Shown piece after piece: positions 11,878 through 37,186 of a stretch of 64,000 nucleotides of DNA (positions are counted from its first letter, which is position 1; each line of letters starts with the position of its first letter). The position numbers and the translations under genes were made by a program. The stretch comes from Tepidimonas sediminis. GTDB taxonomy: Bacteria > Pseudomonadota > Gammaproteobacteria > Burkholderiales > Burkholderiaceae_C. The stretch covers positions 62,001 through 126,000 of the forward strand of contig NZ_VJND01000003.1 of assembly GCF_007556605.1 (NCBI RefSeq), read 5' to 3'. The notes under the pieces are model-generated. The model was not told the origin of the DNA. It was given only the letters and a program-made list of their open reading frames with translations, and did no database searches.

Positions 11878-11925
11878 GCCGTCCTCCCGCCAACGCCCTG
11901 AACCGTCGAAGAAAGGAACACAGTC

Positions 11926-12285: not shown

Positions 12286-12348
12286 GCCGGCGCTGCCAGC
12301 CACCGTGGGGGGCCGTACCGCGGCGCCCCCGCGCACCAGGAGGGGACG

Positions 12349-13152: not shown

Positions 13153-13177
13153 GGCCGCCGGCGGCGGAGGGCGGGAC

Positions 13178-15478: not shown

Positions 15479-15536
15479 AGGCTCGGCCCGGCGCGGGGGC
15501 GGAACCTTTGGCGCGCGCCCGGCTCTCAACGGCACC

Positions 15537-16508: not shown

Positions 16509-16513
16509 CGGCC

Positions 16514-16798
16514 ATGGCGCGACCTGCCAAACTCGTGACCGTGTACTGCGAGGCGGTGCTGGAGCCGCTGGTGATCCGCGAGCTGGACCGGCTCGGGGTC
16601 GTCGGCTACACCGTCAGCGACTGCCGCGGCCGCGGCCAGCGCGGCGAGCGCGGCGGCCAGTGGCGCATGAGCGCCAACGTGCGCATCGAGGTGGTGTGCG
16701 ACCCCGTCACCAGCGAGCGCATCGCCGCGGCGCTGCGGCCGTATGAGCCGGACTATGGCCTGCTGGTGGTGCGCGGCGATGTCGAGGTGTTGAATTGA
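16514..16798 (+). CDS. sbtB: SbtB-like PII-family carbon-signalling protein
   Basis: 94-residue PII-like protein. The ferredoxin-like core is recognisable: LVTVYCEAVLEPLVIREL, a T-loop (CRGRGQRGERGGQW, about 38-51), VRIEVVCDPVTSERIAAAL and a C-terminal YGLLVVRGDVEVLN like the end of SbtB. Cyanobacterial SbtB binds adenine nucleotides (cAMP, AMP, ADP, ATP) and controls SbtA. The T-loop lacks the uridylylated tyrosine of GlnB/GlnK, and the C-terminal CGPxGC redox extension of some SbtB proteins is absent. The ATG at 16514 follows the sbtA stop by 5 bp, so the two are coupled. Confidence 0.85.
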   Translation: MARPAKLVTVYCEAVLEPLVIRELDRLGVVGYTVSDCRGRGQRGERGGQWRMSANVRIEVVCDPVTSERIAAALRPYEPDYGLLVVRGDVEVLN

Positions 16799-17835: not shown

Positions 17836-19413
17836 TCAGGCGTCATCCCATCGCTGCACGAGATGCTCCGCCCACGTCCGCACCGCGTGCCGCTCGTCGT
17901 CGGGCAGCTGGCGCCACTGGCGCACCATCATCGCCATGCGCGGGTGGGTGGCGAAGCGCGCCTCGTGCCGGGCGATGAAGTCCCAGTAGAGCGCGTTGAA
18001 CGGGCAGGCGTCGGCGCCGGTGCGGCGCCGGGGATCGTAGCGGCAGCCGCGGCAGTGGTCGCCCATGCGCTGCAGGTAGGCGGCGCTGGCGGCATAGGGC
18101 TTGGTGGCCATCAGGCCGCCGTCGGCCCACTGGCTCATGCCGAGCGTGTTGGGCGCCTCCACCCACTCGAAGGCGTCGACGTAGACGCCGAGGTACCAGC
18201 GGTGCACCTCGGCCGGGTCGCAGCCGGCGATCAGCGCGAAGTTGCCGGTGACCATCAGCCGCTGGATGTGGTGAGCGTAGGCGTCGCGCAGCGTCTGGCC
18301 GATGGCGGCGCGCAGGCAGGCCATGTCCGTCTCACCGTCCCAGTAGAAGCGCGGCAGCGGTCGGGTGTGGGCCAGCGCGTTGCGTTCGGTGTAGCCCGGC
18401 ATGTGCGCCCAGTAGACGCCGCGCACGTACTCACGCCAGCCGAGGATCTGACGGATGAAGCCTTCGACGCTGGCCAGCGGGGCGTGGCCGGCGCGCCAGG
18501 CATCCTCGGCGCGGCGGATCACCTCCAGCGGGTGCAGCAGCTTGACGTTGAGCGCGAACGACAGTTGCGAGTGGAACAAGCGCGGGCGCCCCTCGGCCAG
18601 CGCGTCCTGGTAGGGGCCGAAGTGCGGCAGCGCCTGTTCGACGAAGGCGTCCAGCTGCGCCAGCGCCTCGGCGCGCGTCAGCGGCCACGGCAGCGCCGCG
18701 GCGGCGGGCTCGCCAACGGTGGCCACGCCGGCCTGCCGCACCATCGCCCACAGCGCGCGCACGTCGTGCCGCGGGCGGGGATCGGGTGGCTCGGGCGGCT
18801 GGCCGCGCCAGGGCTGGCGGTTGGCGGCGTCGAAGTTCCAGCGTCCGCCGGCGGGCTGATCGCCGTCCATCAGCACGCCGTGTTCACGGCGCAGCGCGCG
18901 GTAGAGGTGCTCCATGACCCAGCGCCGCCGAGCGCCGAGCCGCCGCGCCACGCCGTCGCGCGGCAGCAGGAAGTGCCGCGTCTCCACCATGCGCACCGGC
19001 AGCGGCGCCTGCTGCGCCCAGCGGCGCAGCGCCGCATCGAGCCGCCATTCGTCGGGCTGCTGGTATTCCACCGCCCGCGCACCGTGCGCCTGCGCCAGCG
19101 CCTGCAGGTTGGCCACCACGTCCTGCCGGTTGTGCGGGTGGTCGAGCGCGATGTAGCGCACCCGGTGGCCGCGCTGGCGCAGCGCGGCGGCAAACGCGCG
19201 CATCGCGGCGAAGATCGCCAGCACCTTCTGCGTGTGGTGGCGGGCGTAGTCGGTCTCGCTGCGCACCTCCATCATGACGTGGAGCACGTCGGCGCGCGGC
19301 TCGCACAGCCACGGGTGGTCGAGGTCGAGCTGGTCGCCGAGGATCAGCCGCAGCGTCGGTGCGGCCACGCTGGCCGCCTCGCCGGTCGGCGCGGCGAGAC
19401 AGGCGCCGTTCAA
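17836..19413 (-). CDS. FeS-type bacterial cryptochrome / (6-4) photolyase (deoxyribodipyrimidine photolyase-related)
   Basis: 525-residue photolyase-related protein of the FeS-BCP/PhrB group, which repairs (6-4) photoproducts with FAD and carries a 4Fe-4S cluster. Seen: N-terminal [18 protein letters not shown]-domain segments [44 protein letters not shown] and [18 protein letters not shown], then C-x2-C-x12-C (HCRGCRYDP...DACPFN), which with the earlier Cys gives four cluster ligands. The start is a TTG at 19413, with AAGGAG eight bases upstream and a TTGA overlap with the DUF2256 stop. A longer open frame upstream reads through DUF2256 in another frame and is not coding. Last gene of the operon. 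Confidence 0.88.
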
Positions 19414-19568
19414 GCGTCGGACTCCTTTCGCGCCGCAGGGCGCTGGCGCCGGCAGCGTTCGGAGCAGTAGACGACACGTTCCCAGTCGCGCGCCCACTTG
19501 CGCCGCCACGCGAACGGGCGGCCGCAGACGAGGCAGGTCTTGGTCGGCAGGAAGGGCTTGCGGTGCAT
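19410..19568 (-). CDS. DUF2256 small zinc-ribbon-like protein
   Basis: 52-residue protein with two cysteine pairs, CLVC (12-15) and CSERC (35-39), in a basic, Trp-rich context ([15 protein letters not shown]). DUF2256 is usually found next to FeS-type photolyases, as here. Function unknown; a metal-binding helper for the photolyase or its cluster is inference. It starts 8 bp after the upstream photolyase stop and its own stop overlaps the next start (TTGA). Confidence 0.85.
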
Positions 19569-19576
19569 CGCGGAAC

Positions 19577-21268
19577 TCACCAGTCGAAGCCGAGCTGTTC
19601 GGGTACGGCCGGGGGAGCGGCGCGCGCGGCGGCTCGGCGCAGGGTGCCGGTGGCGCTGAAGCGGCGTTCGAGCCCGGTGGCCGGATCGCGCGCCAAGGCC
19701 CCCGGCATGCCGCGGCGCGAGCCGTGCCGCTGCGCCACCGCCTGCGCCTCGGCGCGCATCTCGGGGCGTTGGCGCCAGGCGTGCAGGCGCGCCTTGGCCG
19801 TGCGCAGGGCGGCCTCCAGCTCCACCGGGGGCTGCGGCCAGTCGGCGCCGACGCGCACGCCGCACGCCTGCTGCACGCCGGCCGGCATGCGCCACGGCTC
19901 GAACAGCCAGGCATCCGGCACGCGCCGCAGCACCGGGCACCACGCGCGCACGAACGTGCCGTGCGGGTCGTGATCGAGCGCCTGCTTGACGGGGTTGTAG
20001 ACGCGCGTGGCGTTGATGCCGGTGGTGCCGGACTGCATCTGCACCTGCGGCCAGTGGATGCCGGGTTCGTAGTCGAGGAACAGGCGAGCCAGCCACAGGC
20101 CGACCTCGCGCCAGTGCAGCCACAGCGGGTAGGCCGCCACCGACACCAGCATCGCGCGCATGCGGAAGTTCAGCCACCCGTGCGCGCGCAGCATCGCCAC
20201 GCAGGCGTCCACCATCGGCCAGCCGGTGCGGCCCTCGCGCAGCGCGGCCCAGCGCGCCTCGTCCCATTCGGCTTCGCGCAGGCCGTCGTAGCCGCGGTGC
20301 AGGTTGCGCCACTCCAGCTCCGGTTCGCTTTCCAGCTTCTGGATGAAGTGGCAGTGCCAGTAGAGCCGGCTGGCGAAGGCGCGCAGGCCGGCGCGCAGCC
20401 GCGCGGCTTCGGCATGCCCGGGGCCGCGGCAGTCGGCCAGCGCCTGCAGCCGCGCCTCGGTGGCCTGCACGACCTCGCGCAGGCTCAGCACCCCGTAGGC
20501 CAGATACGGCGACAGGCGCGAGCAGGCGCCGGGGGCGCTCAGCGGCGAGGAGATGCCGCCGCGGTAGCGCACCGCGCGCCGTTGCAGAAAACCGTGCAGC
20601 GTGGCTTCGGCACGCGTGCGCCCGCCGCGCTGGCGCTGCGGCGGCTCCCACGGATCCAGGCCCAGCGCGGCGGCGTCCGGCCACGGGCCGGCGCGCGGTT
20701 CCCCATCCTCGCCGAGCCACCAAGCCAGCGGCGCGATGGCGGACCGCACCGCCCACGGCCACGGCGCGAACGCCAGCCGCGGCGGCGGCCACGGGGCCTG
20801 CGGCGCGCGCATCAGCCGCTCGCGCGCCGCGAGCCACCGGTCGCGGTCGCGCAGGCCGCGCACGACGCCGAACGCCGCCACCTCGTGCAGCGCCACCCCG
20901 TGCGCGCGCGCCCAGCGCCGCACGGCGGAGTCGCGCGCGGACGTCCAGCCGTTGCCGGTTTCCTCGTGCGCGTGGATCGCCGCGAGGCCCATGCGGCGGT
21001 GCAGCGCCGCCAGCACCGCCACCGCGTCGCCGACGGCCACGTGCAGCGCGGCGTGCGGCCGGCCCGTGGCGCGCAGCGCGGCGTCCAGCTCCAGCAGGCT
21101 TTCGCGGATGAAGCCCCAGTGCTGCGCGGCGGCGTCGGGCTGGCGCCACAGCCCGGGCTCGACGATGTAGAGCGCCAGCACCGGCCCGCGCGCCGCAGCC
21201 TGCACCAGCGGCGCGTGGTCGCGCACGCGCAGGTCGCGCTTGAACCAGACGAGCTGCACGCCGCTCAT
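19577..21268 (-). CDS. phrB: Cryptochrome/deoxyribodipyrimidine photolyase
   Basis: Light-driven DNA repair flavoprotein, probably for cyclobutane pyrimidine dimers. The N-terminal photolyase domain begins [21 protein letters not shown]-binding motifs follow: [46 protein letters not shown], and [23 protein letters not shown], which carries the flavin aspartate/asparagine region. 563 residues, longer than E. coli PhrB (about 470), through an Ala/Arg-rich C-terminal tail ending PEQLGFDW. It lies 9 bp after the SnoaL-like gene. Two different photolyases in one operon point to repair of both main UV lesions. Confidence 0.9.
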
Positions 21269-21277
21269 GCCGCCGGT

Positions 21278-21736
21278 TCACCCCCGGTGCGCGCCGCCGG
21301 CCACCCGCGCGGCCAGCCAGCGCATCAGCGCGCCAAGCAGCGGCAGCTGGCCGTAAAGCTCCTCGGCGGCGTCCCAGTAGTCGCGGTGTTCGGTGATGCG
21401 GCCATCGGCGTCGAAGCGAAAGTGCGTGGCGCCGCGGATGCGTCGCCCCTGCCGCTGCCCGCGCCAGCGGAACGCGAGCGTCCAGGTGACGAAGCCCTGC
21501 GTCGCATCGCCGAGCCGCTCGTGCACGACGAAGCGCGGCTCATCCAGCTGCGCGAACATGCGCGCGAAGATCGCGCGGATCGCCGCAAGCCCCTGCACCT
21601 CGTGGAACGGATCCTTGAAGCGCGCATCCGGCGCGTAGAGGGCGTCCAGCGCGTCGAGGCGCTCGGCGCCGAGCCGCTCGAACACGGCGGCGGCGCGCGC
21701 GGTGGGATCGGGCGGGGCAGGGGGCACAGAGGTCAT
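21278..21736 (-). CDS. SnoaL/NTF2-like protein
   Basis: 152-residue single-domain protein with an NTF2-like cone fold pattern ([28 protein letters not shown], then [18 protein letters not shown] and [18 protein letters not shown]). Proteins of this type accompany SDR, DUF3833 and photolyase genes in similar light-stress operons. Catalytic role unknown; it may act on a lipid or a small oxidised product. It lies 12 bp downstream of the SDR gene. Confidence 0.8.
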
Positions 21737-21748
21737 GGCGGCGCGGGT

Positions 21749-22519
21749 TCACAGGCCGGTGGCGCGGCGCACCAGCGGGAAGTAAAGCCGATACGGCAGG
21801 CAGCGCAGCAGCCGCAGCACGAGCGTGAAGCGCTTGGGAAAATGGATGTCGAACGCGCCGCTTGCCCAGCCCTGCAGGATCCGCTGCGCGGCCTGCTCGG
21901 GCGTCAGCAGCGCGGGCATGCGGAAGGTGTTGTGCGCCGTCAGTGGTGTGGCCACGAACCCCGGGTTGACGACGCTGACGCCGATGCCGCGCGGGCGCAG
22001 GTCGAGGTGGAGGATTTCGGCCAGGTGGATCAGCGCCGCCTTGGTCGGCCCGTAGGCCAGCGCCTGGGGCAGGCCGCGCCAGCCGGCCACGCTGGCGATC
22101 AGGCTCAGGTGTCCGTGGCCCTGCGCCAGCAGCCGCGGCACCACCGCGCCGACCACGTGCAGCGTGCCCTCGACGTTGACGCGCTGGTGGCGCAGCAGCT
22201 CGTCGAGGTCCAGCACCGTGGCGCGCTGCGGCTGGTAGTGCGCCGCGGCGTGCAGCACCAGGTCCACCGGCCCTTCGGCCCACAGGTGCGCCGCGGCGGC
22301 GGCCACCGCGGTGCGGTCGGTCACATCCAGCGGCAGCGCCTGCCGCCGTGGCGCGGCGGCGGCCCAGGCGGCCAGCGCCTTGGCCTGCCGGGCCGAGGCG
22401 ATGACGCTGGCGCCGCGCGCGTGCAGCGCTGCGGCCACCGCGCGGCCAATGCCGCTGGAGGCGCCGACGATCCAGACGCGCCGGCCGTGCCAGTCGCGCA
22501 GCGGGGGATTGGCGCTCAT
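21749..22519 (-). CDS. Short-chain dehydrogenase/reductase
   Basis: 256-residue NAD(P)-dependent oxidoreductase. It has the cofactor motif GASSGIG (about 18-24), a serine in LSLIASVAG, and the catalytic YGPTK (Tyr-x3-Lys). The tail ending FPLVRRATGL is basic and hydrophobic and may touch the membrane. The ATG at 22519 overlaps the DUF3833 stop (ATGA), so it is translationally coupled. Substrate unknown; the operon context suggests a modified lipid or polyketide-like compound. Confidence 0.88.
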   Translation of the reverse strand: MSANPPLRDWHGRRVWIVGASSGIGRAVAAALHARGASVIASARQAKALAAWAAAAPRRQALPLDVTDRTAVAAAAAHLWAEGPVDLVLHAAAHYQPQRATVLDLDELLRHQRVNVEGTLHVVGAVVPRLLAQGHGHLSLIASVAGWRGLPQALAYGPTKAALIHLAEILHLDLRPRGIGVSVVNPGFVATPLTAHNTFRMPALLTPEQAAQRILQGWASGAFDIHFPKRFTLVLRLLRCLPYRLYFPLVRRATGL

Positions 22520-23103
22520 GGATCCAGCCGCGTGAACGACAGCGTCACCTCGCCGAGCCGGATGCCCCACTTGCGCATGGTGGCGCGGTTGAGCATCGTG
22601 CGCTCGTCAATCAGGAACATCCAGTCGTCGAACTGCACCTCCCACACCCGCCCGTCCACCGGCAGGGCCAGCGTGTAGCGCCAGTTCAGCGCGTTGCCGG
22701 CGGCCACGCCCTGCGCGGTGCCGACGACGTCGTCGGCGCGGCCTTCGTAGCGGCCGTCGCCGAGGTCGGTCAGCCGCCAGACGCGCCGCTCGGTGGCGCC
22801 GTCGCCGTAGGTGAAGCGCTCGTCCAGCACGCCGTCGCGCCCCTGCCACTGCGCGCTCATCTCGACGATGAAGCGCCGCCGCACGTGGCCGAAGCGGTCC
22901 TGGAACATGCCGTGCGCCACCAGCCGCCCGTTGAAGTAGGTCTTTAGGTCCAGCACCGGACGCTCGGCGGCATACTGCTGCGGCGTCGGCGTGGCGCAGC
23001 CGGCCAGCATCAGGGCCAGCGCCGCCAGGCCCAGCGCGGTGGCGCGCCGGCCGCGGCGGGTCGCCGTGGGCACGGCGGGGGAGGGAGGCCAAGTCGTGTT
23101 CAT
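22516..23103 (-). CDS. DUF3833 family lipoprotein
   Basis: 195-residue predicted lipoprotein: basic n-region, hydrophobic stretch (GLAALALMLAGC) and lipobox LAGC with Cys about 36. The mature part matches DUF3833 (FNGRLVAHGMFQDRFGHVRRRFIVEMSAQW, then VWEVQFDDWMFLIDERTMLNRATMRKWG). Family members are lipocalin-like and probably bind a hydrophobic ligand in the periplasm. It is coupled by ATGA overlaps to both the MFS gene upstream and the SDR gene downstream. The biochemical role is unknown. Confidence 0.85.
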   Translation of the reverse strand: MNTTWPPSPAVPTATRRGRRATALGLAALALMLAGCATPTPQQYAAERPVLDLKTYFNGRLVAHGMFQDRFGHVRRRFIVEMSAQWQGRDGVLDERFTYGDGATERRVWRLTDLGDGRYEGRADDVVGTAQGVAAGNALNWRYTLALPVDGRVWEVQFDDWMFLIDERTMLNRATMRKWGIRLGEVTLSFTRLDP

Positions 23104-24416
23104 GACGGGTGCACTCCGCAGGTGGGGGTGGCCGCCACCGCGCTGGACGCGGGGGCAGGGGCATCGCAGCGCCGCAGCGTGGCCAGCAGCGCCGCGGCCA
23201 GCAGCTTGAGCGCGCACGGCAGCACGGCGTAGGCGAACGTCAAGGCCTGCAGGCCGACGGGGTCGGCGCCGCCCGGCTGGTAGCCGAGCCGCTGCAGCAG
23301 CGGCAGCGCCAGCCCGGCGGCCAGCGCGAGGTTGGCCTTGGCCAGCAGGCTCCACCAGCCGAAGTAGGCGCCTTCGTGGCGGCCGCGCCCGCCGGCGGCG
23401 GCCACGACGCCGGTCAGCAGCGCCGGCGGCAGCGCCAGGTCGGCGCCGAGCGCCAGGCCCGACAGCGCGCAAATGACCGCGAACGCCGCCACGTCACCCG
23501 CGCCGAGCGTGGCGGTCCAGGCAAAGCTGGCCACCGCCAGCAGCATGCCGAGTCCCCAGGCGCGCACGGCGCCGAGACGGGGCACCAGCCGCAGCCACAG
23601 CGGCAGCCCCGCCGCCGCGGCGAGGAAATACAGCGCCAGCAGCGGCCCCTGCCAGGCGGCAGCCTGCAGCCGGTCGGTGATGAAGAACAGCACCAGCGTG
23701 GCCGGGATTGCGCTGGCCAGGCCGCTTACCACGAACACCGCCGCCAGGCGCCGAAATGCCGGCTGCCGCCATGGATGGCCCCAACCGGCCTGCGGAGCCG
23801 CAGTCGATTCCGGCGCCGATCTGGCTGGAGGTCGCGGCGCGCGCGCCAGCGCCGCCGCGCCCAGCGCCAGCAGCGCGGCCAGCAGCGCCAGCGTCGCGGG
23901 CCAGCCGATCAGCCCCGGCAACAGCGAGGCCAGCACCACGCCGGCCAGCGCCAGCCCCTCGCGCCAGCCGGCCAGGCGCGCCTGCCGCGCGGTGTCGCCG
24001 CCCAGGCGCGCGGCCCAGCTCTGGTGCGCGATCGCCAGCGCGCTGTAGGCCAGCGTCGTGACCAGCACCCCGGCCAGCGCCCAGGCGGCCAGCGCCGCGG
24101 GCGGCAGCGCCGGTGGACGCAGCAGCGCCGCCAGCGCCAGCGCCAGCAGCGCGGCCAGCCCCGCCACGCGCCGCAGCACGGCGGCCACACCGCCGCGCGC
24201 GAAGGCACGATCCCACGCGCGCCCGAGCCACGGGTCGGTGACGGCGTCGAACGCGCGGGCGGCCAGCAGCAGCGCACCCAGCCACGCCAGCGGCACCCCC
24301 AGCTGCGCGTAGACGTGCGGCACGTGCACATAGAGCGGCAGCGCCGCAAACGCCAGCGGCAGGCCGAGCAGCCCGTAGCGCAGGCCGTCGGCGGAGGGCA
24401 GGGCCGCGCCGTTCAT
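23100..24416 (-). CDS. MFS transporter, glycoside-pentoside-hexuronide (MelB-like) type
   Basis: 438-residue membrane protein with about 12 hydrophobic segments. The early motif LLLAARAFDAVTDPWLGRAWDR (residues about 48-69, with the D-x3-D-P signature) fits the MFS_2/GPH family. Homologues occur in photolyase/DUF1365 operons, where they may flip or export a lipid or pigment rather than carry sugars; that is inference. It is coupled by ATGA overlaps to the chalcone-isomerase-like gene and to DUF3833. Confidence 0.85.
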   Translation of the reverse strand: MNGAALPSADGLRYGLLGLPLAFAALPLYVHVPHVYAQLGVPLAWLGALLLAARAFDAVTDPWLGRAWDRAFARGGVAAVLRRVAGLAALLALALAALLRPPALPPAALAAWALAGVLVTTLAYSALAIAHQSWAARLGGDTARQARLAGWREGLALAGVVLASLLPGLIGWPATLALLAALLALGAAALARAPRPPARSAPESTAAPQAGWGHPWRQPAFRRLAAVFVVSGLASAIPATLVLFFITDRLQAAAWQGPLLALYFLAAAAGLPLWLRLVPRLGAVRAWGLGMLLAVASFAWTATLGAGDVAAFAVICALSGLALGADLALPPALLTGVVAAAGGRGRHEGAYFGWWSLLAKANLALAAGLALPLLQRLGYQPGGADPVGLQALTFAYAVLPCALKLLAAALLATLRRCDAPAPASSAVAATPTCGVHPS

Positions 24417-25030
24417 CGTGCCGCCGTGGGGCCGGAAAGTCCGAGCAGCGCCGCGCGCAGCGCCGGCTGCGACGTGGTCGGCGCCAGCCAGATGCCGAAG
24501 AAGCGCTCGGCAAAGCGCGGCTCTGCCAGCTCGCCCAGCGGCTGCGGCACACCGCCCGCGCGCGCCAGCGCGAAGCGCGCCCCGTGCGCCGGATCCCACA
24601 AACCGGCGATGTGGTCGCCGTCGGCCACGTCCGGGAACAGCCGCTGCATCGCGGCCAGCCAGCGCGCCTCGTCGGTCGGATCGATCGGCCCAGCGCGGCG
24701 CATCTCCTCCAGCGAACGCTGGGCGATGTCGCGGCCCCGGAACGAGCGCAGGTAGTGCAGCTCCAGCACCAGCGGCGCCTGCCCAAGCTGGCCGGGCTGC
24801 CAGCCGGGCACGGCCCACAGCGTGGCATGATAGACCGCCAAACTCAGAAAACGCAGCGTGCCGCGCCCGACCGGCGCCGCCCCCGGCAGCAGCGTGGGAC
24901 CGAGGCCGCCGGGCTCTGTGCTGGCGGCTGCAAGCGGACTTGCGGCGCAAGAGGCCAGCAGCAGCCAGCCGGATACGGCCCGCAGCAGCGCGCGCCGCTC
25001 ACGCGCGCTCGAGCGTGACCTGCACCACAT
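24413..25030 (-). CDS. Chalcone isomerase-like periplasmic protein
   Basis: Secreted protein of the bacterial chalcone-isomerase-like fold (family motif region LRFLSLAVYHATLWAVPGW, then ALVLELHYLRSFRGRDIAQRSLEEM). Bacterial members are not true chalcone isomerases and are thought to bind or act on fatty acids. The first 35 residues form a signal peptide (arginine-rich n-region, GWLLLASCAASPLAAA). The ATG at 25030 overlaps the cfa-like gene by 32 bp; no other ATG, GTG or TTG in frame keeps the signal peptide. Coupled to the MFS gene by ATGA. Confidence 0.78.
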   Translation of the reverse strand: MWCRSRSSARERRALLRAVSGWLLLASCAASPLAAASTEPGGLGPTLLPGAAPVGRGTLRFLSLAVYHATLWAVPGWQPGQLGQAPLVLELHYLRSFRGRDIAQRSLEEMRRAGPIDPTDEARWLAAMQRLFPDVADGDHIAGLWDPAHGARFALARAGGVPQPLGELAEPRFAERFFGIWLAPTTSQPALRAALLGLSGPTAAR

Positions 25031-26255
25031 CGATGTCCCCGGCGTCGAAGCCGGCCTCGCAGTAGGCCAGGTAGAACGTCCACAGCCGCACGAAGCGCTC
25101 GTCGAACCCCTGCGCCCGCACGGCCTCAAGCTGCGCGAGGAAGGCGCGCCGCCAACGCCGCAGCGTCTCGGCGTAGTCGGCCCCGAAGGCCAGCTCGTCG
25201 CGCACCTGCAGGCCCGCGCGCGCCGCCTGGCGGTGGATCTCGCCGCGGCTGAGCAGGCAGCCACCCGGGAAGACATACTGCTGGATGAAATCGGTGCCGC
25301 GCAGGTAACGCTCGAACAGCTCGTCGCGGATGACGATGGCCTGGATGCAGGCGCGGCCGCCCGGGCGCAGCAGGTGGCGCACGGCGTCGAAGTAGGCCGG
25401 CCAGTAGGCCTGCCCGACGGCCTCGATCATCTCGATCGAGACGATCGCATCGAACGGCCCGTCGGCGATGTCGCGGTAGTCCTGCAGCCGCAGCTCGACG
25501 CGCTCGCTCAGGCCCGCGTGCGCCAGCCGCCGCATCCCGTGCGCCAGCTGCTCGGTCGACAGCGTCACGCCGACCACGCGCGCGCCGAACTCGCGCGCCG
25601 CCATCTCGGCCAGCGCCCCCCAGCCGCAGCCGATCTCCAGCACCCGCGCCCCTTCGGCGACGCCGGCCTGCTGCAGCGCGCGGCGCATCTTGGCGCGCTG
25701 CGCCTGCTCCAGCGTCTGGCCAAAGTCGCCGCCGAACCACGCCGACGAGTAGGTCATGGTGTCGTCCAGCCACAGGCGGTAGAAGCCATTGCCGAGGTCA
25801 TAGTGCGCATGGATGTTGCGCCGGCTGCCGGCGCGGCTGTTGCGGCGCAGCCGGTGGCGCAGCCGATACAGCAGCCGCCCGGCCCAGTGGCCGTGGATGG
25901 CTGCATCGATCTCGCGCCGGTTGGCCAGCATCACGCGCAGCAGCGCCGCCAGGTCCGGCGTGCTCCAGAGGCCATCGAGGTAGCCCTCGGCAAAGCCGAT
26001 GTCGCCGCGGCGCAGCGCGGCGGCGGCCACGCGCCAGTCGTGCAGCTCCAGCCGCGCGTGTAAACCAGCCGGGGCGTGCGGCGCGCCGAAGCGCAGCGTC
26101 AGACCGTGCGGCGTGCGCAGCTCCAGCTGGCCGTGGCGCATCTGGCGCAGCAGCCGCAGCACGCTGCGGCCGGCCGCGGGGGCCTGGCGCAGGGCGAGCT
26201 GCCAGACGGTGGCATCGCCGCCGGGCGGCAGCGGAGGGGCGGACAGCAGGCTCAT
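24999..26255 (-). CDS. Cyclopropane-fatty-acyl-phospholipid synthase-like methyltransferase
   Basis: 418-residue SAM-dependent methyltransferase of the Cfa family, which adds a methylene or methyl group to double bonds of membrane acyl chains. Seen: RNIHAHYDLGNGFYRLWLDDTMTYSSAWF, the SAM motif VLEIGCGWGAL (about 207-217), SIEMIEAVG, and QYVFPGGCLLS. In operons with an amine oxidase and DUF1365 this type may make methylated or furan fatty acids rather than cyclopropane rings; substrate inferred. The ATG at 26255 overlaps the DUF1365 stop (ATGA). Confidence 0.88.
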   Translation of the reverse strand: MSLLSAPPLPPGGDATVWQLALRQAPAAGRSVLRLLRQMRHGQLELRTPHGLTLRFGAPHAPAGLHARLELHDWRVAAAALRRGDIGFAEGYLDGLWSTPDLAALLRVMLANRREIDAAIHGHWAGRLLYRLRHRLRRNSRAGSRRNIHAHYDLGNGFYRLWLDDTMTYSSAWFGGDFGQTLEQAQRAKMRRALQQAGVAEGARVLEIGCGWGALAEMAAREFGARVVGVTLSTEQLAHGMRRLAHAGLSERVELRLQDYRDIADGPFDAIVSIEMIEAVGQAYWPAYFDAVRHLLRPGGRACIQAIVIRDELFERYLRGTDFIQQYVFPGGCLLSRGEIHRQAARAGLQVRDELAFGADYAETLRRWRRAFLAQLEAVRAQGFDERFVRLWTFYLAYCEAGFDAGDIDVVQVTLERA

Positions 26256-27085
26256 CGGACGGCTCCGGTAGGGTTGAGCGGGCTCTGGCGGGTCACCCAC
26301 AGCGCGGGGGCGGGCGGCTTGGCGTGCACGGGCACGCCCTTGAGCCACAGGCGCAGCGCGTGCCAGTGAATGCGCGCGATCACCGCCGCGCTGTGCCAGC
26401 GATGGCGCCACAGCAGCCGCGGCCAGTCGCCGGGCCCGGCGGGGCGCAGCGCGCCGCTGACGCTGGTGCGCAGCAGCGCGCCGGCTTGGTCGGCGTAGTC
26501 GATGCGCACCACCGTGCGCGGCTGGCCGTCGGCGTGCGCATGCAGAAAGCGAAACGCATAGCCGCCCTCGACGCGGCAGAACGGCGAGACGTGAAACGCC
26601 TTCGGCGCGTGCAGCGTGGCGCCCCAGGCCGGACGGTCCAGCACGTAGCAGTGGCGCTCGCCGAAGGTGTTGTTGACCTCGGCGACGATGGCGCGCAGCG
26701 TGCCGTCGGCACGGTGACAGTACCAGAAGCTGACCGGCTTGAACGCGTAGCCGAGCACGCGCAGGTAGGTGTGCAGCCACACCGGCCCGTCGGCGTCGTG
26801 CACCCCGTGCGCGGCCAGCAGCGCGCGCAGCCACGTCAGTGCACCTCCATCAATGGGGCCGCGGCCATCGCCGTGGTCGCTGTCGAAAAACGCGATCGCG
26901 CCGCGGCGGTTCAGCGCCAGGCCGCTGGCGGCCGCCGCTTGCGGCAGCGCGTGCATCGGCAACAGCGCAAACCAGGTTCGGTGTTCGAAACCGTGGGCAC
27001 GCGGGCGCAGACGGTGGTGGCGCACCACGCCCTCGCCGATCCAGACGCGTTCGGCCTCCAGCGGGGTCGGGGCGGTGGGGCTCAT
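26252..27085 (-). CDS. DUF1365 family protein
   Basis: 277-residue protein of DUF1365, a family nearly always found between a flavin amine oxidase and a Cfa-like methyltransferase in light- or singlet-oxygen-induced operons. Conserved segments: VRHHRLRPRAHGFEHRTWF, YLRVLGYAFKPVSFWYCHR, VAEVNNTFGERHCY, KAFHVSPFCRVEGGYAF. No signal peptide. Function unproven; a part in lipid modification is inferred from neighbours. It is 18 bp downstream of the amine oxidase gene. Confidence 0.88.
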   Translation of the reverse strand: MSPTAPTPLEAERVWIGEGVVRHHRLRPRAHGFEHRTWFALLPMHALPQAAAASGLALNRRGAIAFFDSDHGDGRGPIDGGALTWLRALLAAHGVHDADGPVWLHTYLRVLGYAFKPVSFWYCHRADGTLRAIVAEVNNTFGERHCYVLDRPAWGATLHAPKAFHVSPFCRVEGGYAFRFLHAHADGQPRTVVRIDYADQAGALLRTSVSGALRPAGPGDWPRLLWRHRWHSAAVIARIHWHALRLWLKGVPVHAKPPAPALWVTRQSPLNPTGAVR

Positions 27086-27103
27086 GCGGCAGGCTCCGCC
27101 TCT

Positions 27104-28408
27104 TCAGGCCGCGGCACGGCGCCGCGCCAGCCGGGCCTGCAGCGCCTCGGCCACCGCCTGGCCGGCGCGCAGGCCGTCCTCGTGGAAGCCATAGCCGAGC
27201 CAGGCGCCGGCATACCAGGTGTGCCATCGGCCCTGCAGCGCGCCCAGGCGGCGCTGCGCGTCGACGGCGGCGGCGTCGAACACCGGATGCGCGTACTCGA
27301 ACTCGGCGATCACGCGCGCCGGATCGATCGGCCGCACCGGGTTGAGCGACTCCACCAGCGGCTGCGCGAACGGCAGCGGCTGCAGGACGTTCAGCCAGTA
27401 ATGCAGGCACACGCGCGCCGACTCACGGCCGGTGTCGGCGGCGCGCTCGTAGTTCCACGCCGACCACACCGCGCGGCGCCGCGGCAGCACCGACACGTCG
27501 GTGTGCAGCACCGCGCGGTTGGGCTGGTAACGGATCGCGCCCAGCAGCGCGCGCTCCTCGGCGCTCGGCCGTGCCAGCAGCGCCAGCGCCTGGTCGCTGT
27601 GCGTGGCCAGCACCACCTCGTCGAAGCGCTCGGCACCGGCGTCGGTGAACAGCGTCACGCCGGCCTCATCGCGCTCGACGCGGCGCACCGGCGTGCGCAG
27701 CCGCGCATCCGGCAGCCGCGCCACGATGCGCTGCACGTACTGGCGCGCGCCGCCGGCCACCGTGTACCACTGCGGACGGCCGTGGACCTGCAGCAGCCCG
27801 TGGTTGTGGCAGAAGCGGATCATCGTGCCGACCGGAAAGGCCAGCATCTGGTCGGTCGGGCAGCTCCAGATGCAGCCCAGCATCGGCAGCAGGTACCAAT
27901 CGCGCAGCGGTCGCCCGAAGCGGTGGCGGTCAAGGAAATCTCCGAGCGGTTCGGCCAGCGCCGCATCGTCGCCCCGCTGCGCCAGCGCGGTGCACAGGCG
28001 GTTGAAGCGCAGCAGGTCCGCCAGCATTCCCCAGAAGCGCGGTCGCAGCAGGTTGCGCCGCTGCGCGAACACGGTGGCCAGCGACGCGCCGCCCCACTCC
28101 AGCGCCGGCCGTCCGTCCGGGCCGGGCAGCTGTACCGAGAACGACATGTCCGACGGCGCGGTCGGCACGCGCAGCTCCTCCAGCAGCGCCTTCAGCCCCG
28201 GGTAGGTGCGGTGGTTGAATACCAGAAAGCCGGTGTCCACCCCGTGCGTGACCGGGCCACCGTCGCGACCCGGCAGCGTCACGTCCACCGTGTGCGTGTG
28301 GCCGCCGAAGTGGGTGCCGGCCTCGAACAGCGTGACGTGCGCGCAGGCGCGCAGCCGGTACGCGGCGGCCAGCCCCGCGATGCCGGATCCCACGACGGCG
28401 ACCTTCAT
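27104..28408 (-). CDS. FAD-dependent amine oxidase-like oxidoreductase
   Basis: 434-residue flavoprotein; N-terminal dinucleotide fold VAVVGSGIAGLAAAYRL (3-19) with the second strand LFEAGTHFGGHTHTV. Later parts include HGVDTGFLVFNHRTYPGL and LATHSDQALALL. It belongs to the NAD(P)-binding/amine oxidase group paired with DUF1365, which probably acts as a lipid desaturase or oxidase rather than on amines. It has a strong ribosome-binding site (GGAGGTGCAG before the ATG) and is the first gene of the leftward operon, divergent from litR. Confidence 0.88.
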   Translation of the reverse strand: MKVAVVGSGIAGLAAAYRLRACAHVTLFEAGTHFGGHTHTVDVTLPGRDGGPVTHGVDTGFLVFNHRTYPGLKALLEELRVPTAPSDMSFSVQLPGPDGRPALEWGGASLATVFAQRRNLLRPRFWGMLADLLRFNRLCTALAQRGDDAALAEPLGDFLDRHRFGRPLRDWYLLPMLGCIWSCPTDQMLAFPVGTMIRFCHNHGLLQVHGRPQWYTVAGGARQYVQRIVARLPDARLRTPVRRVERDEAGVTLFTDAGAERFDEVVLATHSDQALALLARPSAEERALLGAIRYQPNRAVLHTDVSVLPRRRAVWSAWNYERAADTGRESARVCLHYWLNVLQPLPFAQPLVESLNPVRPIDPARVIAEFEYAHPVFDAAAVDAQRRLGALQGRWHTWYAGAWLGYGFHEDGLRAGQAVAEALQARLARRRAAA

Positions 28409-28443
28409 CTGCACCTCCGGCGGCGGCCCGGTGGAACCGCCAG

Positions 28444-28472
28444 TTTGTCTTGGACAAAAACCATTGTATGCT
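28444..28472. promoter_or_regulatory. Divergent litR / photoprotection operon promoter with inverted repeat
   Basis: TTTGTC-TTG-GACAAA (28444-28458) is a perfect 6-bp inverted repeat with a 3-bp spacer in the 114-bp gap. On the plus strand TTGTCT (28445-28450), 16 bp and TATGCT (28467-28472) can serve as a litR promoter. On the minus strand TACAAT (28464-28469) is a good -10 for the operon. The repeat lies across both promoters, where a MerR-family light-dependent repressor could act. That LitR itself binds here is inference. Confidence 0.5.
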
Positions 28473-28522
28473 CCATCGACCCGTTTTGCATCCGCCGGTT
28501 CCCGGCCCTTGCCGTCCCGCCC

Positions 28523-29506
28523 ATGACCGATGCCACCACTCCTTCCGAGACCGTCGACGGCGCGCTGTGGACGATCGCCGACGTCGAGCGCGACACCGGC
28601 ATCGGCAAGGACACGCTGCGCGTGTGGGAGCGGCGCTACGGCTTTCCGCGGCCGCGCCGCGACGGCCACGGCGACCGCCTGTACGACGCCGCGCAGCTGG
28701 CGCGGCTGCGCCTGATCCGCCGCCTGATGGACGCCGGCCTGCGCCCCGGGCGCATCGTCGGCCTGCCGCCGGCGCAGCTGGAGGCGCTGGCGCAGCAGCT
28801 GAGCGCGCCGGCGGCGGCCCCGCTCGCCGCCGGGGGGGCGGATGACGCCGTGGCGCGCGCGCTCGCGTGGCTGCGCGAGGACCGTGTGGAGGCGCTGCGC
28901 GCCGAGCTGCGCGCAGCGCTGCGCCGGCTTGGCCTGGCCCCCACCATCGACGCGCTGGTGGCGCCGCTGGCGGTGGAAGTCGGGCTGGCGTGGCAGCGCG
29001 GCGAGCTGCTGGTCTATCAGGAGCACCTGTTCACCGAGACCGTGCAGGGCGTGCTGCGCGAGGCGCTGGCGGCCGCCGAGCCCGCCGCGGACGCGCGGCC
29101 GTGCGTGCTGCTGACCACCACGCCGGGCGAGACGCACCAGCTCGGTCTGCTGATGGCGCAGTGCCATCTGGCCGAGGCCGGGGCGCGCTGCGTGGCGCTG
29201 GGGCCGGCCACGCCGCTGGCCGACATCGTCGAGGCGGCGCGGCGCACCGCGGTCGACGTCGTCGGCCTGAGCTACAGCGCCTGGAGCGCGCCGCGCGACG
29301 TGCTGGAGGCGGTGCAGCGGCTGCGCGCGGCGCTGCCGCCGGCGGTGGCGCTGTGGGTCGGCGGCGCCGGCGCGCAGCGGCCGCTGCGCCGCGTCCGCCT
29401 GCCGGGGGTGACGCTGCTGGCGCGCGCCGCCGACGTGGGGGCCGCCGTGCGGCGCTGGCGGGCCGCTCAGGCGCCCGGCGGCGCCAGCGGCAGCAGCGCG
29501 CCGTAG
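28523..29506 (+). CDS. litR: MerR-family B12-dependent photoreceptor regulator (LitR/CarH type)
   Basis: 327-residue regulator with three parts: MerR helix-turn-helix (15-75; WTIADVERDTGIGKDTLRVWERRYGFP), a helical middle, and a cobalamin-binding Rossmann domain (about 192-310). The CarH/LitR signature W-x9-EH is exact (W157, E167, H168), and ETHQLG (H205) replaces the DxHxxG B12 motif. In characterised members adenosylcobalamin loss in light breaks up the tetramer and relieves repression of photolyase and lipid genes. It is divergent from such an operon here. Its 3' end overlaps the cbbR2 3' end by 40 bp. No B12 synthesis gene is in view. Confidence 0.9.
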   Translation: MTDATTPSETVDGALWTIADVERDTGIGKDTLRVWERRYGFPRPRRDGHGDRLYDAAQLARLRLIRRLMDAGLRPGRIVGLPPAQLEALAQQLSAPAAAPLAAGGADDAVARALAWLREDRVEALRAELRAALRRLGLAPTIDALVAPLAVEVGLAWQRGELLVYQEHLFTETVQGVLREALAAAEPAADARPCVLLTTTPGETHQLGLLMAQCHLAEAGARCVALGPATPLADIVEAARRTAVDVVGLSYSAWSAPRDVLEAVQRLRAALPPAVALWVGGAGAQRPLRRVRLPGVTLLARAADVGAAVRRWRAAQAPGGASGSSAP

Positions 29507-30411
29507 CGCTCCGCCAGGAAGGCCTCGCCGCGCTCCAGCACGAAGTAGCGGAACGCCTCCGCTGCCGGCGACAGCAGCTTGGCCAGCGTGTGCACCACGT
29601 GCCAGGCGCGCACCAGCGGCGTGCCCTCCACGTCCAGGCGCGCGATCAGGCCGTGCTGCAGCTCCAGCTTCAGCGCATGCAGCGACACGAAGCCCAGCCC
29701 GAGCCCGGCCATCACCGCCTGCTTGATCGCCTCGTTGTCCGGCAGCTCCATCGCGATGCGCAGCTCCAGTCCGTGGCGCTGCGCGAACTGTTCCAGCAGC
29801 GCGCGCGTGCCCGAGCCGCGTTCGCGCACGATGAACGGGTAGGGCGCCAGCGCCTCCGGTGTCGGGTGACCGACGCGCAGCAGCGGGTGATCCAGCGGCG
29901 CGACGAACACGTGCGGGTGCGCGGCGAACGGCTCGGCGCGCACCGCCAGCTCCGACGGCGGGCGCCCCATCACCGCCACGTCCAGCTCGTTGGCCTGCAG
30001 CAGGCGCAGCAGCTGCTCGCGGTTGCCGGTCACGAGCCGCACGTCGACGCCGCGGTGCTCGCGCCGGAAGGCTGCCAGCAGCGCCGGCAGGAAATACTGT
30101 GCCGAGCCGACCATGCCGATCGTCAGCTGCCCCGCCTCCAGGCGCTTGAGGCGCGCCGCGGTGTCCTCGGCGTCCTTCAGCGTGGCCAGGACTTTGCGCG
30201 CGTAGACCAGCATGTACTCGCCGGCGGTGGTCAGCGCCACGCGCCGGCCCTGACGCTCGAACAGCGGCAGCCCGACGTGGCCCTCCAGCTCCTTGATCTG
30301 CATCGTCACCGCTGGCGGCGTCAGGTGCAGCGCCTCGGCGGCGCGGGCGAAGCTCAGGTGCCGCGCCACCTCGACGAAGATGCGCAGCTGACGGAAGGTG
30401 GCGTTGCGCAT
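29467..30411 (-). CDS. cbbR: LysR-type CBB regulator (CbbR), second copy
   Basis: 314-residue LysR activator. Winged helix: FRQLRIFVEVARHLSFARAAEALHLTPPAVTMQIKELEGHVGLPLFERQGRR (7-58). Effector domain segments LPDNEAIKQAVMAGLGLGFVSLHALKLEL and AWHVVHTLAKLLSP are typical of CbbR. It is divergent from cbbY-cbbA, so it probably controls the second CBB arm. It differs clearly from the first CbbR throughout, so this is not a recent duplication. It overlaps litR tail to tail by 40 bp. Confidence 0.93.
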   Translation of the reverse strand: MRNATFRQLRIFVEVARHLSFARAAEALHLTPPAVTMQIKELEGHVGLPLFERQGRRVALTTAGEYMLVYARKVLATLKDAEDTAARLKRLEAGQLTIGMVGSAQYFLPALLAAFRREHRGVDVRLVTGNREQLLRLLQANELDVAVMGRPPSELAVRAEPFAAHPHVFVAPLDHPLLRVGHPTPEALAPYPFIVRERGSGTRALLEQFAQRHGLELRIAMELPDNEAIKQAVMAGLGLGFVSLHALKLELQHGLIARLDVEGTPLVRAWHVVHTLAKLLSPAAEAFRYFVLERGEAFLAERYGALLPLAPPGA

Positions 30412-30510: not shown

Positions 30511-31236
30511 ATGCTCCACGCCCTGATCTTTGACGTCGACGGCACGCTGGCCGACACCGAGCGCGTCCACCTCGCGGCCTTCAACGCCGCCTTCGCCAGC
30601 GAGGGGCTGGACTGGCACTGGGACGAGGCGCTCTACACCCGGCTGCTGGAGATCTCCGGCGGCAAGGAGCGCATCCGTCACTACTGGCAGCAGGTGCACC
30701 CCGAGCGGCAGGACATCGACGGCACCGAGCTGCGCGCGCTGATCGACCGTCTGCACGAGGTCAAGACCGCCTTCTACGAGGAGGCGGTGCGCCAGGGCGC
30801 GGTGCAGCTGCGCCCCGGCGTGCTGGCGCTGATCGAGCAGGCGCGCCGCGCCGGCCTGCGGCTGGCGATCGCCACCACCACCTCGCCGGTCAACATCGCC
30901 GCGCTGCTGCGCAGCGCGATGGGGCCTGACTGGCAGCTGGCGTTCGACGTGGTGGAGGACGCTTCCACGGCGCCGCGCAAGAAGCCGCACCCGCAGGTCT
31001 ACAGCCAGACGCTGGCGCGGCTGGGTCTGCCGGCGGCGCAGTGCCTGGCGCTGGAGGATTCGGCCAATGGGCTGCAGGCCGCGCGCGCGGCGGGGCTGGC
31101 CACCGTCATCACCCGCAACGCCTTCACCGCGCACCACGACTTCACCGGCGCGCTGCGCGTGCTGGACGACCTGCAGGACGTCGACCTGGAGGCGCTGCGG
31201 CGCTGGCACGCCGAGGCCGTCGCCACCGTCACCTGA
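30511..31236 (+). CDS. cbbY: CbbY, HAD-family xylulose-1,5-bisphosphate phosphatase
   Basis: Removes xylulose-1,5-bisphosphate, a misfire product that inhibits RuBisCO. HAD motifs: [10 protein letters not shown] (8-17; catalytic D8 and D10), TTTSP, the lysine in KKPHP, and LEDSANG. 241 residues. AGGAGG lies 6-7 bases before the ATG. First gene of the second CBB operon. Another HAD phosphatase assignment is possible, but the cap segment ([11 protein letters not shown]) and location favour CbbY. Confidence 0.92.
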
Positions 31237-31283
31237 ATACCCCGACGATCCCCGATACGAAGAAAACCCGAGGAGTCCCACCG

Positions 31284-32366
31284 ATGCCCCTGTCCCAACG
31301 CACCACGCTGACGCAGTTCCTGATCGAGCAGCGCCGCCGCTTCCCCAGCGCCAGCGGCGACTTCAACGCCCTGGTGCTGGACGTGGCGCTGGCGTGCAAG
31401 GCCATCGCGCGCAGCGTGGCCTTCGGCGCGCTGGGCGGCGTGCTGGGCGCGCAGTCCGGCTCGATCAACGTGCAGGGCGAGGAACAGAAGAAGCTCGACG
31501 TCATCAGCAACGAGCTGTTCGTGCGCGCCAACGAGTGGGGCGGCCACCTGGCCGGCATGGCCAGCGAGGAGATGGACGAGCCCTGCAACATTCCGTCGGC
31601 ATACCCGCGCGGCAAGTACCTGCTGGTGTTCGACCCGCTGGACGGCTCCAGCAACATCGACGTCAACGTCTCGGTCGGCAGCATCTTCTCGATCCTGCGC
31701 GCGCCGCAGGACGTCATCGACAGCGGCCGCGACGTGACGGCGGCGGACTTCCTGCAGCCGGGCTGCCAGCAGCTGGCCGCCGGCTACGCGCTCTACGGCC
31801 CCTCGACGATGCTGGTGCTGACGGTGGGCACCGGCGTGCACGGCTTCACGCTCGACCCCAACCTCGGCGAATTCTTCCTCTCGCACCCCGACATCCGTGT
31901 GCCCGAGGACACGCAGGAGTTCGCGATCAACGCCTCCAACAGCCGCTTCTGGGAGCCGCCGGTCAAGCGCTACGTCGACGAATGCCTGGCCGGCAAGACC
32001 GGCCCGCGCGGCAAGGACTTCAACATGCGCTGGATCGCCAGCATGGTGGCCGAGGCGCACCGCATCCTGATGCGCGGCGGCGTCTTCCTCTATCCGCGCG
32101 ACACCAAGGACCCGAGCAAGCCCGGCCGGCTGCGCCTGCTGTACGAGGCCAACCCCATTGGCTTCATCATGGAGCAGGCCGGCGGGCGCGCCAGCACCGG
32201 GCGCGAGCCGATTCTGACCGTGCAGCCGACCTCGCTGCACCAGCGCATCGGCCTGGTGTTCGGCAGCAAGAACGAGGTCGAGCGCATCGAGCGCTACCAC
32301 CGCGAGCCCGCGCCGTACAAGGACGACAACCCGCTGTTCGGCGAGCGTTCGCTGTTCCGCGACTGA
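31284..32366 (+). CDS. cbbF: Fructose-1,6-bisphosphatase class I
   Basis: Hydrolyses fructose-1,6-bisphosphate (and possibly sedoheptulose-1,7-bisphosphate) in CBB regeneration. Metal and substrate motif [13 protein letters not shown] (about 116-128); [13 protein letters not shown] and [15 protein letters not shown] near the C-terminus. 360 residues. GAGGAG precedes the ATG by 8 bases; a longer open frame begins inside cbbY but is unsupported. It lies 47 bp after cbbY. No separate SBPase gene is seen. Confidence 0.94.
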
Positions 32367-32421
32367 AGGTCCGCCGCCGCGACGTCCACCGGATTCGAGA
32401 CGACCCGAGGAGAACCCCGCC

Positions 32422-33306
32422 ATGTCCGAGAAGCACCCGATCATCGCCATCACCGGCTCCTCCGGCGCCGGCACTTCCACCGTCACGCGCACGTTCCAGA
32501 ACATCTTCCGCCGCGAGGGGGTCAAGGCCGCCATCATCGAGGGCGACAGCTTCCACCGTTACGACCGCAAGGAGATGCGCCAGCGCATGGCCGAGGAGGA
32601 GGCGCGCGGCAACCGCCACTTCAGCCACTTCGGACCGGAGGCCAACCTGTTCGAGGAGCTGGAAAACCTCTTCAGGACCTACGCCGAAACCGGCCGCGGG
32701 CGCTTCCGCAAGTACCTGCACAGCGAGGAGGAGGCCGCGCCGTACGGTCAGGAGCCGGGCACCTTCACGCCGTGGGAGGACCTGCCGGAGGACACCGACA
32801 TGCTGTTCTACGAGGGCCTGCACGGCGCGGTGGTCACCGACAAGGTCAACGTCGCGCAGTACCCGGATCTGCTGATCGGCGTGGCACCCTCGATCAACCT
32901 GGAGTGGATCCAGAAGCTCATCCGCGACAAGACGCAGCGCCGCTACAGCCAGGAAGCGGTGGTGGACACCATCCTGCGCCGCATGCCGGACTACGTCAAC
33001 TACATCTGCCCGCAGTTCGCGGTGACGCACGTGAACTTCCAGCGCGTGCCGGTGGTGGATACTTCGAACCCGTTCATCGCGCGTGACATCCCCACCCCCG
33101 ACGAGAGCGTGTGCGTGATCCGCTTCGCCAAGCCCAAGGGCATCGACTTTCCGTACCTGCTGTCGATGATCGACGGCTCGTGGATGAGCCGGGCCAACAC
33201 CATCGTCGTGCCCGGTGGCAAGATGGAGCTCGCGATGCAGCTGATCTTCACGCCCTTCATCTGGCGCATGATGGAGCGGCGCAAGCGCGCGCTGGGCCTG
33301 GCCTGA
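32422..33306 (+). CDS. cbbP: Phosphoribulokinase
   Basis: Phosphorylates ribulose-5-phosphate to ribulose-1,5-bisphosphate, the step specific to the CBB cycle besides RuBisCO. P-loop [16 protein letters not shown] (about 10-25), [14 protein letters not shown], and YEGLHG. 294 residues, the short octameric bacterial type that is usually activated by NADH and inhibited by AMP. AGGAGAACC precedes the ATG. Confidence 0.96.
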
Positions 33307-33344
33307 CGCGTCCGCCCCCTTTTCGAGACCACGAGCACGACGAC

Positions 33345-36097: not shown

Positions 36098-37186
<1,089 letters not shown>

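Follow-up and report, generated by a model that had tools for sequence, protein, structure and literature searches.

A predicted light-controlled operon lies between two CBB arms in Tepidimonas, probably through insertion into a once continuous cluster

Introduction

In Tepidimonas sediminis, two groups of CBB genes are separated by photolyase genes and a LitR/CarH-type regulator. This arrangement raises the question of whether the light and carbon-fixation systems influence each other or are simply neighbours. The original prediction, made on the 64-kb stretch of DNA analysed here (the window), had suggested coupling of the two systems or insertion of the light genes into a once continuous CBB cluster, and had allowed for a random, neutral neighbourhood.

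Organization of the locus

Pfam profile searches of the open reading frames in the window recovered every element that had been named at its position. The predicted order was also observed, with cbbR-cbbLSQO-sbtAB parted from cbbR-cbbYFPTZGKA by eleven leftward genes and the LitR/CarH regulator. The left CBB arm comprises cbbL, cbbS, cbbQ, cbbO, sbtA and sbtB (10453..16798, plus strand; RuBisCO_large, RuBisCO_small, CbbQ_C, VWA just under its cut-off, Sbt_1 and P-II), and the gene for its LysR-type regulator, cbbR1, is on the minus strand (9354..10331; PF03466/PF00126). The eleven leftward genes span 17836-28408 and, judging from their spacing, probably form one operon. The litR gene (28523..29506, plus strand) is divergent from them, and the second regulator gene, cbbR2 (29467..30411, minus strand; PF03466/PF00126), is convergent with litR; the tail-to-tail overlap described for this pair is 40 bp. 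The right CBB arm consists of cbbY, F, P, T, Z, G, K and A (30511..39568, plus strand), identified by Pfam and, for cbbP, by PRK search. The searches also detected a gene with a NOV_C domain between sbtB and the light operon (16868-17725), which was absent from the original prediction and has a GC content of 63.5%, compared with 71.7% for the window.

Genes of the light operon

The light operon, which lies entirely on the minus strand, encodes two photolyases and predicted furan-fatty-acid enzymes. Its first gene encodes an FAD amine-oxidase-type protein, predicted UfaD (27104..28408; PF01593/PF13450), followed by a DUF1365 protein, predicted UfaO (26252..27085; PF07103), and a Cfa-like methyltransferase (CMAS), predicted UfaM (24999..26255; PF02353). 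Next are a chalcone-isomerase-like protein and an MFS_2 transporter (23100..24811; Pfam, with PF16036 just under its cut-off for the former, whose true start is probably further upstream), and then a DUF3833 protein, a short-chain dehydrogenase (SDR) and a SnoaL-like protein (21278..23103; Pfam). The last three genes encode an FAD/antenna-domain DNA photolyase of the FAD_binding_7 type (phr, 19577..21268; PF03441, PF00875), a DUF2256 small protein of 52 aa (19410..19568; PF10013, E 3.9e-21) and an FeS-type photolyase/cryptochrome of the DPRP type (17836..19368; PF04244). The last of these belongs with the CryB/PhrB-like FeS-BCP photolyases, since it matches CryB 3zxs with an E value of 1e-148 and has four cysteines, at "macl", "crgc" and "acpfn" in an alignment made by eye. 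We take these four cysteines to be the ligands of the FeS cluster.

The UfaD-, UfaO- and UfaM-type genes are adjacent and are assigned at the family level. All three families are shared with UfaD-UfaO-UfaM of Rhodobacter sphaeroides and Rhodopseudomonas palustris, UfaO carries DUF1365, and the order in the window is that of RPA2571-2569 of R. palustris (PMC7380195). The same paper reports that the furan-fatty-acid product of R. sphaeroides increases on loss of chrR, whereas here both LitR control and the product are predictions from the genes. A similar gene set (phrB, SDR, FAD oxidoreductase and ufaM) is found in the light-inducible PplR/PmlR1 cluster of Pseudomonas, which is controlled by a LitR-family repressor, and phrB and ufaM of P. 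mendocina are induced 25-33-fold by light (PMC9758184). However, the regulator of the Pseudomonas cluster is of class II, unlike the class I protein indicated by motifs here; PmlR2 has a LOV protein as its partner and recognizes a TGTACA-type box.

The LitR regulator

LitR has a MerR DNA-binding domain and two B12-binding domains (PF13411, PF02607, PF02310), and its nearest solved structure is CarH 5c8d (E 5e-33), which aligned over residues 11-286. The light-response motifs given for class I LitR/CarH proteins are GxxW, EH, GxxH and GxxxP (PMC11796333). All four were read from the window protein, as GLAW, EH, GETH and GPATP, and these motifs suggest that it is a class I, AdoB12-type regulator. 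LitR scored 136.6 bits against the CarH equivalog NF052513, whose cut-off is 400, yet this was its best NCBIfam match; it is therefore assigned to the LitR/CarH family and not to the CarH equivalog. A PF02572 (CobA/CobO/BtuR) gene is present in the genome. The class I regulators of Thermus thermophilus, Myxococcus and Bacillus megaterium have in common with the window protein the MerR head, both B12-binding domains, the four motifs and divergence from the target operon. The published role of this class is mainly light-induced carotenoid production (PMC9758184), whereas the neighbours here are photolyase and predicted furan-fatty-acid genes and the palindrome TTTGTCYWRGACAAA is conserved.

Predicted LitR operator

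The predicted operator, palindrome TTTGTCTTGGACAAA, is located at 28444..28458, between the divergent litR and amine-oxidase genes. Of 38 regions upstream of litR, the window among them, 29 contained this 15-bp palindrome with at most one mismatch and none contained its reversed form; five of the 38 had at least three mismatches. One Tepidimonas genome, G006, was not among the 38 regions because a contig break falls within its intergenic region; the palindrome of this genome falls at the other contig end. A search of the 64-kb window allowing two mismatches gave a single match, with zero mismatches, at this site and no second LitR-type palindrome. At the same threshold 44 of 100 shuffled windows gave at least one match, so the case for the window operator rests on its conservation.

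A wider LitR regulon was also sought in the window and in the genome. With at most one mismatch, the genome contains two sites, both exact, one at litR and the other on contig C12, a short way upstream of a GGDEF/EAL gene. With the reversed palindrome as control there were 4 matches in the forward and 4 in the reverse direction. The C12 site may therefore be due to chance, and the wider regulon was rejected. The promoter scan listed 1 site (0.4 in shuffles) and the terminator scan 4 (3.4 in shuffles). Neither the operator nor the placement of the light operon among CBB genes was met in the literature searched, where the operator was sought as the string TTGTCC only and may thus be published.

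Distribution in Tepidimonas and related genera

Intact litR is present in 8 of 11 Tepidimonas genomes and lies beside cbbR2 in all eight. The neighbourhood is thus not random, as had been allowed for, and shared ancestry is enough to explain the placement. The overlap of litR and cbbR2 is found in two of the eight pairs; five have gaps of 24-129 bp, and one has 1540 bp with two genes. Among the six of these genomes that could be judged, the left arm adjoins the light operon in four and is apart from it in two. T. thermarum has both CBB arms around the light operon on a single contig, and two genomes (G001 and G006) match the window order across contigs. In comparison with T. alkaliphilus, a divergent tract has its right edge at the litR/cbbR2 junction. 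The remaining three genomes (G005, G009 and G010) have lost the operon, with scars left, and have kept PRK and cbbF.

Outside the genus, litR adjoins cbbR2 in Macromonas nakdongensis, with outer flanks as in the window across a contig break. Of 80 named cbbR2 loci, 8 have uninterrupted arms, in which cbbQ-cbbO is followed by cbbR2 in the order and orientation of the window with no light genes between. The Comamonadaceae cbbR-cbbLSQO ... cbbR-cbbYFP cluster has the same arms, which are split by the light operon here. The records that carry these clusters are labelled Hydrogenophaga, Limnohabitans, Hylemonella and Serpentinimonas, and no light-gene matches were found between their cbbO and cbbR2; the genes occupying that interval in Hydrogenophaga Bet4 are sbtA and one of the P-II type. 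On the left flank are cnnm and mpe in one locus (L162) and mpe and dead in another (L177). In one further relative, G155, the flanks are the same and the light operon lies between cnnm and a Crp-type gene; about 44 bp separate the matches to cnnm and the last operon gene, and 202 bp separate litR from the Crp gene. Neither the PRK nor the RuBisCO matches include G155, and no CBB scar was seen at its locus.

Neither a cfa nor a GyrA tree was strong enough by itself to place the near genera in order, and a tree was therefore built from six light-operon genes. The litR loci of 39 genomes, a selection from the litR matches, had been retrieved, and 33 of these genomes were taken for the tree; it has 32 rows, as G057 was dropped with two genes missing, while G001, G004 and G180 were kept, each without one gene. 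In this tree, by a quick method, the light operons that share this position fall into one clade (SH-aLRT 99) and G155 groups with Macromonas (SH-aLRT 91).

Among 200 family genomes, with ancestry ignored, litR and PRK occur together in 40, which is commoner than expected (odds ratio 2.2, p 0.012), and litR and RuBisCO in 33 (p 0.005). Plasmid origin was rejected: in a tblastn search with LitR, 38 of 72,556 plasmid records had a match, every one below 60% identity.

Origin of the arrangement

We consider it probable that the locus holds a normal LitR/CarH-controlled photoprotection unit that entered a continuous CBB cluster by a single insertion, with later losses, and that the neighbours are not cross-regulated. 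In the dark, adenosylcobalamin-bound LitR would occupy the palindrome in the divergent litR/amine-oxidase intergenic region, repressing both directions. In light, the cofactor bond would be broken, LitR released, and litR and the eleven-gene operon transcribed. The products would be two photolyases and a furan-fatty-acid pathway (UfaD, UfaO, UfaM), the latter protecting membranes. That the switch and the operon work in this way is suggested by the gene families. The insertion would have interrupted cbbR-cbbLSQO-sbtAB-cbbR-cbbYFPTZGKA in an ancestor shared by Tepidimonas and near genera. Later, the light operon would have been lost independently more than once and the CBB arms once, with rearrangements and allele exchange as well; neither system would be regulated through the other. 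The 8 of 80 uninterrupted loci and the one-clade tree lend support to the insertion that had been proposed.

Several observations stand against this explanation. Resolution of the species tree is poor among the near genera, which leaves room for loss in the uninterrupted lineages, and the co-occurrence of litR with PRK and RuBisCO is above expectation, ancestry ignored. In addition, cbbL-cbbS is in view in five of the eight uninterrupted loci and the L162 RuBisCO is distant, at only 31% identity to that of the window; five of 38 operators are poor, and LitR falls short of NF052513.

Alternatively, the interruption may be ancestral, with the light operon always present and later lost from the uninterrupted lineages. 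Tepidimonas loses the operon readily and relationships among the sampled near genera are poorly resolved, but the lack of light-gene matches between cbbO and cbbR2 in the four labelled genera makes this unlikely. We regard the reverse order, in which the light operon was the first occupant of the cnnm/Crp-gene site and was later flanked on either side by incoming CBB arms, as slightly less likely again. The tight, scarless locus of G155 could represent the state before CBB arrival. However, this order needs two separate insertions that jointly recreate an order seen uninterrupted elsewhere, cnnm with mpe or mpe with dead is to the left of uninterrupted clusters, and G155 groups with Macromonas, which has both light operon and CBB.

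Functional coupling, in which light/B12 state and carbon fixation affect each other, for example by litR antisense transcription into cbbR2 or by selection of the arms around the operon, appears very improbable. The tail-to-tail placement in all eight intact Tepidimonas genomes and Macromonas, the weak co-occurrence among family genomes and the absence of a listed terminator between litR and cbbR2 would fit it. Against it, three genomes lost the light operon and retained PRK and cbbF, G155 has light genes without a PRK or RuBisCO match, the overlap is found in two of eight pairs, the window has no other LitR palindrome, and litR and PRK are within 10 kb in only 4 of the 40 family genomes with both (by eye, many others being split over contigs). 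The coupling first proposed is thus not supported, and antisense or read-through transcription was rejected as the main reading since the overlap is not conserved and the divergent tract ends at the litR/cbbR2 junction. Most doubtful of all is that the right CBB arm in Tepidimonas is tuned by light/B12 via convergent litR/cbbR2 transcription, its position held by selection and not ancestry alone; if this were true, autotrophic growth would fall or rise with light damage control.

Significance

Most likely, the operon in hot-spring Tepidimonas, of a standard light-switched kind for DNA repair and membrane protection, is an old insertion since lost by several relatives, and the arrangement looks like a shared address and not a functional connection of carbon fixation to light. 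For Burkholderiales, the palindrome TTTGTCYWRGACAAA offers a testable operator of an AdoB12-type LitR; the genes that go with it are photolyase genes and predicted furan-fatty-acid genes, not those for carotenoids. Scars, uninterrupted clusters and a one-clade tree together illustrate how two unrelated functions come to one address, and the case warns against inferring function from gene neighbourhood.

Gene content and known counterparts

Pfam searches of the window (contig C23, 62001-126000, of a 2.53-Mb genome) confirmed all of the genes named in the original prediction, including the 52-aa DUF2256 gene (19410-19568); the chalcone-isomerase-like match and the VWA match of CbbO scored slightly below cut-off. 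The left CBB arm comprises cbbR1, cbbLSQO and sbtAB, the right arm is cbbYFPTZGKA, and litR overlaps cbbR2 by 40 bp. A NOV_C-domain gene (16868-17725, 63.5% GC) between sbtB and the light operon scores E 7.5e-103 against PDC-S36, a candidate anti-phage model, and tblastn of the fetched loci gave no hit to this gene. A Crp-type regulator gene (39731-40444) comes after cbbA.

The first three genes of the light operon (17836-28408) match UfaD, UfaO and UfaM at the family level, and their order is that of RPA2571-2569 as described in PMC7380195. The operon also resembles a Pseudomonas gene set under a class II LitR, which is light-induced according to PMC9758184.

LitR and its predicted operator

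LitR contains a MerR domain and both B12 domains by Pfam, and its top solved-structure match is Thermus CarH. All of the motifs GxxW, EH, GxxH and GxxxP, listed as light-response motifs of LitR/CarH in PMC11796333, are present. CarH was also the top NCBIfam match, with a score far under the cut-off, which indicates a relative of that CarH equivalog and not the equivalog itself. The genome carries a PF02572 (CobA/CobO/BtuR) gene, a family that makes adenosylcobalamin. Judging from the gene families, LitR would repress in the dark and light would release the repression.

The predicted operator palindrome, TTTGTCYWRGACAAA, occurred with at most one mismatch in 29 of 38 regions upstream of litR and with at most two in 33, against 0 and 1 of 38 for the reversed-palindrome control; these regions are related sequences and hence not 38 independent tests. 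The single site found in the window lies between litR and the amine-oxidase gene. A second exact palindrome in the genome (contig C12, 121461-121473), immediately 5' of a GGDEF/EAL gene, could be a chance match.

Arrangement and loss of the operon in Tepidimonas

Of the 11 genus genomes, 8 have an intact litR (counting that of the window species), and cbbR2 adjoins it in all eight. The 40-bp overlap is shared with Tepidimonas SKYG89, and the genes are separated by 24 bp in T. ignava, 38 bp in T. charontis, 67 bp in T. alkaliphilus, 70 bp in N1_Bin, 129 bp in MAG_5 and 1540 bp in T. thermarum, where AsnC-type and EamA-type genes intervene. The gap in Macromonas is 15 bp. The left arm lies on the far side of the operon in the window species, SKYG89, T. 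thermarum and T. charontis (in the last at a distance of about 6 kb within one contig, with no sbt hit). It does not adjoin the operon in T. ignava or in T. alkaliphilus, which has RNase E and other genes there instead; contig ends prevent judging its position in N1_Bin and MAG_5. The Macromonas contigs break between the light operon and cbbO, and the two ends there carry genes for an ECF-type sigma factor and an RskA_C anti-sigma factor (L043:12170-12760; L056:1-567).

Scars of operon loss were found in three genomes. First, a MAG labelled Hydrogenophaga TT109_68_79 retains C-terminal parts of litR and the DPRP photolyase gene between sbtB and cbbR2. Secondly, T. aquatica, compared with its sister T. 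ignava, keeps short phr and SnoaL/SDR-region pieces and a litR tail. Third, a further genus member, G010, shows a larger deletion, with pieces of cbbR1, cbbO, DUF1365 and cbbY around a deacetylase-family gene (L037:8452-13782); it gave no CbbL match and no cbbR2 hit. PRK is kept there and is present in all 11 genus genomes.

CBB clusters with and without the light operon

From at least 493 cbbR2 loci, the 80 best-scoring named ones were compared; in 3 of these 80, less than 1 kb was available 3' of cbbR2. On that side litR occurs in nine loci: the TT109_68_79 scar and eight near-full-length genes, the latter exclusively in records with the name Tepidimonas or Macromonas. In another 8 of these 80 (L130, L152, L153, L156, L162, L166, L170 and L177; the scar not counted), cbbO, with cbbQ before it, is at most 4 kb from cbbR2, and no light genes intervene. 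Five of the eight show cbbS, cbbL and cbbR1, and L153 and L170 stop short of cbbL. For example, Hydrogenophaga Bet4 (L170) has the order cbbO, BMC-domain gene, sbtA (44% identity), P-II gene, trypsin-like gene, 100-aa gene and cbbR2, close to the window's CBB cluster minus the light operon. In L162, a record labelled Hydrogenophaga, cbbQ and cbbO share one cnnm-mpe-flanked cluster with a RuBisCO 31% identical to the window's, which we take to be form II-like.

A six-gene light-operon tree, built by a quick method without bootstrap, placed G155 (a relative with the operon), Macromonas, Comamonadaceae CSMAG_1286 and Tepidimonas in one group (SH-aLRT 99). CSMAG_1286 may have the same arrangement, but its contigs stop beside litR and beside cbbR2. 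In G155 the operon sits between cnnm and a Crp-type gene, and searches of 200 family genomes gave no PRK or RuBisCO match for it. That Crp-type gene (L040:9577-10218), a counterpart of the window's post-cbbA regulator, adjoins litR and may be a relic of a CBB cluster.

Assuming that all searches covered the same 200 family genomes, litR was present in 81, PRK in 77 and both in 40 (p 0.012), and 33 of the 59 with RuBisCO also had litR (p 0.005). By-eye comparison of positions placed litR within 10 kb of PRK in 4 of those 40 (the window species, T. thermarum, T. ignava and Macromonas nakdongensis); most of the others have them on separate contigs, so linkage may be hidden.

Probable replacements within the window

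The GyrA tree (GyrA identified by Pfam) makes the window species sister to T. alkaliphilus (100/99), whereas the LitR tree pairs it with SKYG89 (100/100). Against T. alkaliphilus, the ten 250-bp segments that make up 27,000-29,499 show 72-86% identity, compared with 94-96% at 26,000-26,749 and 91-92% at 29,500-29,999; isolated lower segments occur at 23,000 (80%), 24,750 (81%) and 39,500 (76%). The simplest reading is that the amine-oxidase gene, the promoter and litR were replaced by allele exchange, up to the cbbR2 tail. The litR/cbbR2 overlap is the edge of this divergent tract.

The left arm suggests a swap of the RuBisCO block next to a cbbR1 that is 92% identical. In the CbbL tree, the 19 other near rows, both carboxysomal and non-carboxysomal, group to the exclusion of the window's protein (96/93). 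No carboxysome genes occur between cbbS and cbbQ in the window species (left arm, 10453-16798). Such genes were observed there in T. thermarum (L020:9555-16700), and one 3' of cbbS in T. alkaliphilus (L026:16474-17859); Pfam identified CsoSCA in both.

Origin of the neighbourhood

The components of this neighbourhood are ordinary. The original prediction had proposed either cross-regulation of the light operon and the CBB genes or an insertion into a CBB cluster. The former found no support in the sequence comparisons. The latter was retained: the light operon most likely entered a CBB cluster by an insertion that was then inherited and has repeatedly decayed.
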